Assembly (NCBI RefSeq): GCF_000316685.1
Contig: NC_019680.1
Location: forward strand, 2,861,407-2,925,406
DNA from: Synechococcus sp. PCC 6312
GTDB lineage: Bacteria; Cyanobacteriota; Cyanobacteriia; Thermosynechococcales; Thermosynechococcaceae
Length of the DNA stretch: 64,000 nt
Direction: 5' to 3'
Under the pieces are notes generated by a model, which was given only the letters and a program-made list of their open reading frames with translations, searched no databases and had not been told where the DNA came from. The translations under genes were made by a program, and so were the position numbers. This document shows positions 59,459 through 61,679 of this stretch, piece by piece. The first letter of the stretch is position 1, and the number at the start of each line of letters is the position of its first letter.

Positions 59459-59669
59459 CTAAAGGTGCAGGAATAAACACAGCCCATTTAGAAACTCTTG
59501 GAACAGTAAAGTAGTAGGATAAATTGCTTATTGCTAATCTCATACTTGAGGCGTTAACTCCAAATTGCCACCATTTTCATCGTCTCTTATTTATGCGGTT
59601 TAATTCTCGTTTGAACTTGACTATCTGTTTAATATGTTGGTTCTCATAGGAAGAGGGTGATCAGTAAAA

Positions 59670-60060
59670 CTAATGAGAGAAGCAAGCCATGAGCCTCATT
59701 CGCAGATGCCTAAAATTTGTAAAGCCATAGGCCTGACGTTTAATCACCTTAATCTTATTATTAATTCCTTCCATAAGCCCACTGGTCGTTCGGTGCCCAA
59801 AATAGTTACAAATTCCATCAATGTGATTTTTTATTATTTGACTTGACGCATGAAATAACTGACTAGATTTTTCCATCCATCTTTCAAATTTCACCCTAGC
59901 CTTGTCAGGGGGTTGGTCAGTTTCATAAATGCTACGAAATTCTTCTTTTAACTCATACGCCAACCTTAATTTTTTCGAGCAATCGAGAGCGTACTCTAGA
60001 TTTTGCTTCTCTCCCTTTGTTAAACTGCTGTGATTCCTTAAGAGTAGGTACTTGATCAGA
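59670..60060 (-). mobile_element. ISL3 family transposase remnant
   Basis: The last 97 residues of an ISL3 transposase are open (AYELKEEFRSIYE, TTSGLMEGINNKIKVIKRQAYGF). The preceding part (IKYLLLRNHSSLTKGE) is in another frame, shifted near 60020. The N-terminal DDE region is missing. I found no intact terminal repeats. It is a dead IS fragment between the methyltransferase remnant and the lasso-type genes. Confidence 0.8.
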
Positions 60061-60278
60061 AGTCCTGAAAGTTAGCTTGAAGTACAAAAAGAGGGGCAGA
60101 AATGAATTGTTTTCCCCTTAGATAAACAAAAAATAGCGAGTTGTTATGGCATCATTCTCAAGCATTGTCAAATCGATTCTGAAGCAACTATTTCTGGTCT
60201 TCAAGATGAGCATGACTGTTGCAGAAATAATCTTTTATCATGATCAGGTTGCACCCTAGGACAGCTTGAAAGGCCAAT

Positions 60279-60437
60279 CTAGCTACCCAGATTATCAAAA
60301 TCCGCTCCATCATTCTCCCCTGCTAAAGTCATATTGGATAGATGACCCAAAACCTCCAACTTAGGAGGGCTGTAGAGCTTGCGTTGTCTGGTTTTAGCTT
60401 CTTTTTCCTGAGACTGAATATTCTGAGGCTGTGACAT
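60279..60437 (-). CDS. Lasso-peptide-type precursor, copy 1
   Basis: A 52-residue gene. The leader carries Tyr22, Pro25, Leu27, Gly31 and Thr37 (LYSPPKLEVLGHLSNMT), the YxxPxLxxxG...T pattern read by the lasso RRE protein. Cutting two residues after Thr37, as in known lasso peptides, gives the core AGENDGADFDNLGS. Ala1 could close a ring onto Asp8. The core starts with Ala-Gly and ends in Ser, as in paeninodin, whose Ser is phosphorylated by an HPr-kinase-like enzyme. Such a kinase is encoded just upstream. GGAG precedes the ATG. Cyclisation is inferred. Confidence 0.75.
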   Translation of the reverse strand: MSQPQNIQSQEKEAKTRQRKLYSPPKLEVLGHLSNMTLAGENDGADFDNLGS

Positions 60438-60472
60438 AAAAGCTCCGATAAAGGTCAATTCAAGAAAGAGTC

Positions 60473-60637
60473 TTAACTAGCTGCCGCCGTCCGGCCCCGA
60501 AAGACATCAACAATAGAAATAGCTTGAGTTAACGAATGTAAATTGCCAAAAAACTCTAGCTTTGGGGTTTTGTAAACCTTGCGTGGGGCCTGGCTATTTT
60601 CCTCTGGGGATGCTGTGCTGACTAGTGAATCGGACAT
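60473..60637 (-). CDS. Lasso-peptide-type precursor, copy 2
   Basis: A 54-residue gene with the same leader residues at the same positions (Tyr22, Pro25, Leu27, Gly31, Thr37; VYKTPKLEFFGNLHSLT). The predicted core is AISIVDVFRGRTAAAS. It ends in Ser but has no Asp or Glu at positions 7-9 and only Asp6, so a normal lasso ring is not possible by the usual rule. GGAG precedes the ATG. It lies between the kinase gene and copy 1. Confidence 0.7.
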   Translation of the reverse strand: MSDSLVSTASPEENSQAPRKVYKTPKLEFFGNLHSLTQAISIVDVFRGRTAAAS

Positions 60638-60740
60638 CACTCAAAACTCCGAGAAACCGAGACTGGATGATATCAACTTACCTAAAATTGCTTGGAAATG
60701 ACCAGAGGCGCAATGAGTCTCCAAAATTACGGCAACAACG

Positions 60741-61679
60741 TTAACAATGGCGAGACTCCAGGCCTTGGATCACGGCCTCCATATATGCAAACTGCCTGGG
60801 GCGATTCAAGCGATAGAGGGGAATCTGCTTTAAGACCTGCCCAATGAGTCGGAACTGGGCGGAGTTTTCACCCAAGACCGGAATCGCTGGGGCAATATAA
60901 CGATGACAGGTTAACTCAAAAAAAGCATGTTGCCCCAACAGCGGTTCTATGGAAACAGTATCAGCTGCGGTGAGAACATAAAGGGCCGTGAGAGGAACAG
61001 CTTCCTGAAAAAATCCCGCTTCTAAGCGGTGTATCTTTTTCGTGATGCCAGTAAATAAATTGGGTAGGCTGTTTAGGCTGAATCCTAATGCGGACACCGT
61101 ATCTGGCCAGAGGCGAATATGGGGATATCCCGGAATAACCACGGGTGGCCCGGCTGGACTAGGTTGGACTAACACCTTATCATCAGCAACCAATGGATAG
61201 CCCCGCTGATGAAGGAAAGACGTGAGAGTGGATTTACCTTGCCCGCTAGCTCCCATAAACGCAACTGCCCCAGACCCCATGACCACACAACTCGCATGGA
61301 GAACTAGATGCCCTCGCACATAGAGCAGTGCCCCGAATACTGGCCCCAACAAAAACGCCCGAATGAGGTCTTCCTGAGCTTCTGGTAGGGGGTCAAGCCA
61401 AATTTCTCGGGTCTGGTGAATCTGGAACAACCCCACAGTTGGATAAAAGTGAAACAGATCTGGGCTATCTGGGGCAGAATACGTGCGCGGACGGGCGGCT
61501 AGATCCTGAATCGGGTGTTGGACTGGGGCATATTTGATTGTGATATCGGGTGGGGCCTGGGTTGGTAATAATTCGGGTAAGGCCAACTCCGAAGCAATAT
61601 TCAGGTGATACGCCGTATAGAAATACACTGAGCAAATAGAAGTTAAAACCTCTTTAATCCTACAGTCCCAGGCCGACAT
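60741..61679 (-). CDS. HPr kinase/phosphorylase-like protein of a lasso-type cluster
   Basis: A 312-residue protein. The P-loop kinase core has His128 in LHAS, Walker A GASGQGKST (143-151) and the Asp pair in LVADDKVLV (166-167), as in HPr kinase. The N-terminal part is not the HprK N-domain, and no HPr substrate is near. Kinases of this class in lasso-peptide clusters (PadeK, ThcoK) phosphorylate the C-terminal Ser of the precursor. The two precursor-like genes just downstream both end in Ser. The target assignment is inference from context. Confidence 0.8.
   Translation of the reverse strand: MSAWDCRIKEVLTSICSVYFYTAYHLNIASELALPELLPTQAPPDITIKYAPVQHPIQDLAARPRTYSAPDSPDLFHFYPTVGLFQIHQTREIWLDPLPEAQEDLIRAFLLGPVFGALLYVRGHLVLHASCVVMGSGAVAFMGASGQGKSTLTSFLHQRGYPLVADDKVLVQPSPAGPPVVIPGYPHIRLWPDTVSALGFSLNSLPNLFTGITKKIHRLEAGFFQEAVPLTALYVLTAADTVSIEPLLGQHAFFELTCHRYIAPAIPVLGENSAQFRLIGQVLKQIPLYRLNRPRQFAYMEAVIQGLESRHC

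Follow-up and report, generated by a model that had tools for sequence, protein, structure and literature searches.

Genome mining for lasso peptides seeks the precursor, RRE, protease, and cyclase genes side by side, and the ring acceptor of a lasso core usually falls within positions 7 to 9. Some of these pathways include a kinase, for which the reported catalytic set is His-Lys-Asp-Asp (PMC9266682). The residue phosphorylated by BsfK is Ser3 of the BsfA core (PMC10368454), and LppK acts on core Ser3 of LppA (PMC13381572). Among known kinase-precursor RiPPs that lack a cyclase, the nearest are the linear polyphosphorylated peptides (LPPs), to which LppA belongs and for which the leader consensus is YxxPxVLxHQxIxFETxxS (PMC13381572). 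Here we describe a locus of Synechococcus sp. PCC 6312 with a kinase gene and two lasso-type precursor genes, which is probably (at about 0.6) a piece of a phosphorylated lasso pathway of the paeninodin type, with its genes dispersed along the chromosome and a single B2 protease in common.

A kinase gene followed by two precursor genes

Within the window (the whole stretch of 64,000 nucleotides that was analyzed), positions 60279 to 61679 contain the kinase gene and the two precursor genes, all on the minus strand, with an insertion-sequence remnant just downstream:

60741-61679, minus strand: intact HprK-like peptide kinase of 312 aa, with H128, P-loop GASGQGKST (K149), D166-D167, K214, and R293
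60473-60637, minus strand: precursor 1, 54 aa, ATG start; leader MSDSLVSTASPEENSQAPRKVYKTPKLEFFGNLHSLTQ, predicted core AISIVDVFRGRTAAAS, with Asp6 as the sole acid, Ser3, and a C-terminal Ser
60279-60437, minus strand: precursor 2, 52 aa, ATG start; leader MSQPQNIQSQEKEAKTRQRKLYSPPKLEVLGHLSNMTL, predicted core AGENDGADFDNLGS, with Ala1, Asp8, and a C-terminal Ser
59638-60190, minus strand: decayed ISL3-type insertion-sequence remnant, with an ISL3 transposase fragment at 59670-59963

These frames agree with the sequence-only reading of the locus, which had placed genes of 52 and 54 codons downstream of an HprK-like kinase on a shared strand. The kinase gene is followed after 103 nt by precursor 1 and, after a further 35 nt, by precursor 2, and a GGAG can be read about 8 to 12 nt upstream of the ATG of each precursor. 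Partial copies of the insertion-sequence remnant recur at four further sites of the genome, with 76 to 92% identity.

The residues Y22, P25, L27, G31, and T37 occupy the same positions in both precursors; with T set at -2, they become Y-17, P-14, L-12, G-8, and T-2, so that the lasso leader code previously read at these positions is indeed present in both leaders, just as both products end in Ser. In an alignment of 12 precursors from this genome and its relatives, the five residues are invariant. Precursors 1 and 2 are the only ORFs of the window with the full motif Y..P.L...G.....T, and Markov-1 resamplings of the window yielded a mean of 0.03 such ORFs and a maximum of 1. Their matches to the NCBIfam models lasso_cyano (20.8 bits; cut-off, 33) and lasso_leader_L3 (14.6; cut-off, 19) are below threshold, and a whole-genome search with a precursor profile that itself contains both of them ranks the pair among other lasso precursors (E values of 7e-12 for precursor 1 and 2e-12 for precursor 2).

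The HprK-like kinase

The window kinase gives weak matches to the Hpr kinase models of Pfam and NCBIfam. An alignment revealed that H128, K149, D166, D167, K214, and R293 are common to 16 of its homologs, and the first four of these residues constitute its His-Lys-Asp-Asp set. The closest solved fold to its AlphaFold2 model (pLDDT of 89.6) is that of PEPCK (Z of 17.6, rmsd of 4.1, 265 aligned residues), and a Foldseek search with the model likewise ranked PEPCK first, with HprK/P matched lower down. PEPCK and HprK/P belong to one P-loop superfamily, and in a comparison based on a predicted model, the ranking of the former over the latter does not separate kinase substrates.

Homologs of the window kinase are found in complete clusters of relatives that combine RRE, B2, cyclase, precursor, and kinase genes (L059, L060, L062, L064, L065, L066, and L078). 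Since many homologs sit in such clusters, the kinase family belongs at least largely to lasso pathways. The earlier pairing of lasso-type leaders with a paeninodin-type kinase is thus supported both by these clusters and by retention of the catalytic set reported for lasso kinases (PMC9266682). In the kinase tree, the window kinase has no firm placement (support of 46/81; best identity of about 36%) and is therefore not assignable to a particular cyclase; a genome scan with the kinase as a single protein query retrieved no relatives.

Predicted cores and the proposed site of phosphorylation

Judged from its residues, which include Ala1 and, as the acceptor, Asp8, core 2 has the textbook form of a lasso core. 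Core 1 has no Asp or Glu at positions 7 to 9, its only acid being Asp6, which makes lasso formation by precursor 1 doubtful. This core may be degenerate, cut elsewhere, or unknotted, and cleavage two residues earlier would shift its Asp to position 8; the precursor as a whole may serve as a degenerate substrate or as one that is not made into a lasso.

Ser is the C-terminal residue in 7 of 21 related precursors, which exceeds background (p of ~4e-4 for an assumed background of 7% and with relatedness ignored), and, as far as these predicted peptides go, it is no general mark of the group. The conservation in relatives that the sequence-only reading had named as a check holds for the leader code and only in part for the C-terminal Ser. 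Its further proposal, that the kinase phosphorylates that Ser, retains the two serine ends and the supported kinase type, but the site itself is called into question both by the minority of relatives ending in this way and by the targeting of Ser3 by BsfK and LppK. Ser3 is present in core 1 and absent from core 2.

Maturation genes at other chromosomal loci

The genome comprises 3.72 Mb in two contigs, and the window is part of the 3.70-Mb contig. Searches of the window with the Asn-synthase, Transglut_core3, and PqqD profiles gave no match, in keeping with the earlier observation that it has no cyclase, protease, or RRE gene. The flanking ORFs of at least 100 aa comprise only the kinase, a dehydrogenase, and short unrelated genes; an NTP-transferase is absent from among them by reading rather than by profile search. 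The suggestion that maturation would depend on distant genes is supported by a genome-wide search, which located a pair of cyclases, RREs of the lasso type, and a single B2 elsewhere:

2.69 Mb: RRE (91 aa) and cyclase (631 aa from an inner start)
3.57 Mb: cyclase (636 aa), second kinase (304 aa), and RRE
1.09 Mb: precursor MQSSFF...RKPYSQPKLECFGHCGNLT...CGSS, with the B2 leader protease directly downstream
0.46 Mb: lone precursor MEDMQKQ...LPYTSPKLVVLGKVDTLT...CSAP

The B2 protein at 1.09 Mb is the sole protein of the genome above the Transglut_core3 cut-off, clears the NCBIfam lasso_biosyn_B2 cut-off (87 versus 33 bits), and has the conserved Cys and His. For both cyclases, the best family is the lasso cyclase model NF033535, at 387 and 268 bits, which is below the full-length cut-off of 525; in the cyclase tree, the two are sisters with full support. 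The RREs, too, have lasso PqqD models as their best matches, below cut-off. Neither the motif nor a weight matrix retrieved a precursor near the 2.69- and 3.57-Mb cyclases, and neither locus has a B2; each part could therefore work only in trans.

Among the leaders compared, the B2-linked one at 1.09 Mb is the nearest to the window leaders, with 11 and 12 of 19 positions identical versus 5 to 8 for those of relatives. The leader code is identical in four precursors of the genome, and open frames with their key residues are kept by the window kinase, both window precursors, both RREs, both cyclases, and the B2. The A, B1, B2, and C genes are thus all represented on one chromosome and are unclustered, lying at five loci. 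With the lasso gene set complete yet scattered in this way, every part would have to act in trans. As for a dedicated lasso exporter, 21 ABC transporter matches were obtained, none exceeding 36% identity.

Three further places in the genome have related features. A fifth ORF resembling the precursors, at 1.167 Mb (L108 6578-6718), has the complete leader motif (SPYHSPTLRKLGGVATVTTASAHC) but a core of about 5 residues and is perhaps a truncated precursor. A PqqD-like protein and an HprK-like kinase occur amid glycosyltransferases both at 1.94 Mb (L024 8998-18531), together with an ABC transporter, and at 2.27 Mb (L025 6847-11776), together with an NTP_transf_5 nucleotidyltransferase. The gene content of these two loci resembles that of LPP loci, with no precursor seen; we rejected them as lasso parts, given their glycosyltransferase surroundings and the absence of a lasso-type precursor.

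Split lasso loci and free-standing kinase-precursor pairs in related cyanobacteria

In a survey of 97 genomes of the class, a B2 is present in 22, and 6 of these 22 (the genome studied here, G000, with G006, G034, G037, G045, and G073) have it without a nearby lasso cyclase, a call that is limited by contig ends in G037 and G045 and is made on essentially complete chromosomes in G000 and G073. Gene clustering in lasso biosynthesis is usual rather than essential. Isolated RRE-B2 pairs occur in G037, G034, G006, and G045 (L109 to L112), with cyclase, precursor, and kinase together elsewhere in the same genomes. That split loci of this kind recur among other cyanobacteria points to a general pattern. 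Of the seven loci retrieved by a scan with the two cyclases as queries, the useful one is from Cyanosarcina radialis, which keeps the cyclase-kinase pair of the 3.57-Mb locus (60% and 59% identity) with no RRE, B2, or precursor nearby and has a separate full lasso cluster in its genome.

Short peptides of one family have a lasso-type leader of the W type (KKxWxxPxLxxxGxxExxT) and the consensus WTSPKLxIHGAIEELTQVxLxDLQxMGxFxLPDQAxDLLASLGGL. These W-leader peptides lie beside a homolog of the window kinase at eight loci (L079, L088, L089, L091, and L103 to L106) and are found without a kinase at three (L100 to L102); no cyclase is near any of the eleven. Their cores have no Asp or Glu at positions 7 to 9 and share one invariant Ser near the C terminus, and the family is possibly a new class of kinase-modified RiPP. 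In a separate case (L070 6937-9294), a kinase homolog, an adjacent F-leader precursor, and an NTP_transf_5 nucleotidyltransferase lie in an apparent polysaccharide locus with no cyclase.

A proposed scattered pathway and its alternatives

In a scattered pathway of this kind, the window kinase would phosphorylate a precursor Ser, namely, the C-terminal Ser14 of core 2 and, in core 1, either Ser3 or Ser16. The YxxPxL leader would be bound by a PqqD-like RRE, from either 2.69 or 3.57 Mb, and the precursor handed to the single B2 of the genome at 1.09 Mb, which would cleave one residue past the Thr at -2. Either the Asn-synthetase-like cyclase from 2.69 Mb or that from 3.57 Mb would then link the N terminus of core 2 to Asp8. 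The genes, their intactness, the common leader code, and the occurrence of every enzyme class are established, whereas the action of the dispersed enzymes on the window precursors, the sequence of steps, the phosphorylation site, and the knot are inferred. The window precursors have the leader code of cyclase-adjacent precursors in relatives, which counts for this scheme.

Counting against it are the missing acceptor of core 1, the loose placement of the window kinase in its tree, and the decayed insertion sequence bordering the locus, which is also compatible with a broken-up remnant. The missing acceptor and the lack of a cyclase at the locus are consistent instead with a cyclase-free kinase-precursor system, in which the peptides would be phosphorylated, cut, and left linear, like the LPPs of Bacillota. 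Core 1 also has a Ser at position 3, where LppA and BsfA are phosphorylated (PMC13381572, PMC10368454), and cyclase-free kinase-precursor loci recur in relatives, as in the eight kinase-linked loci of the W-leader family. However, both window leaders are of the Y type with G-8 and T-2 and do not match the LPP consensus, neither an RRE nor an NTP-transferase was seen at the locus, and core 2 has the Ala1 and Asp8 of a lasso core. Moreover, lasso cyclases occur in the genome together with a B2, the locus of which encodes the precursor with the nearest leader, and on balance, linear products are unlikely. A decaying remnant of a formerly complete cluster, split by insertion sequences and with its product lost, is conceivable because the insertion-sequence remnant lies immediately downstream of the precursors, and both the odd core 1 and the truncated precursor-like ORF at 1.167 Mb would fit. 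This appears more improbable still, as all of the genes checked are open with their key residues, both precursor genes keep ribosome-binding sites, and the leader code does not vary among four precursors. A merely fortuitous likeness of two short ORFs to lasso precursors, in favor of which one could cite their length and subthreshold family scores, has a negligible probability: it is effectively refuted by the observation of two motif ORFs versus 0.03 expected per window, adjoining each other and a kinase of the right type, and the whole-genome profile ranks both with lasso precursors, though both were in that profile.

The new type of kinase-precursor system raised in the sequence-only reading is thus not needed to explain the window and keeps some probability, above all for precursor 1. 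More broadly, we tentatively consider that cyanobacteria might possess free-standing kinase-precursor modules with lasso-type leaders, of which precursor 1 and the W-leader family would be two forms, giving phosphorylated, unknotted products that are either linear or substrates of shared machinery elsewhere. This idea, somewhat unlikely as it is, stays alive because the W-leader loci pair precursors with a kinase, without a cyclase and without an acid at positions 7 to 9.

Comparison with known systems

Our search of the open-access literature, with subscription papers outside its scope, found no description of such a scattered lasso pathway. As the cutting and knotting enzymes lie elsewhere on the chromosome, the pathway would escape cluster-based searches: its single shared B2, its pair of RRE-cyclase loci, and its precursors, no fewer than four at three places, would be overlooked or turn up only as orphans. 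If the scattered pathway is real, lasso enzymes are able to act in trans on a number of unlinked precursors, and the rules of leader-RRE pairing become testable within one cell.

As in paeninodin-type lasso clusters, an HprK-like kinase with His-Lys-Asp-Asp adjoins precursors with YxxPxL...G...T leaders and a C-terminal Ser; unlike in those clusters, the RRE, B2, and cyclase are at other chromosomal sites, and one of the two cores has no acceptor at positions 7 to 9. With the complete cyanobacterial lasso clusters (e.g., L060, L062, L064, and L078), the locus shares kinase homologs at 30 to 39% identity, the leader code, and the enzyme classes, but the genes that are contiguous there are distributed here among five loci, only one of which has a B2. 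The LPP systems of Bacillota (PMC13381572) also combine an HprK-like kinase with a YxxP-leader precursor and no cyclase at the locus, whereas the window precursors have a different leader consensus and no RRE or NTP-transferase seen beside them.
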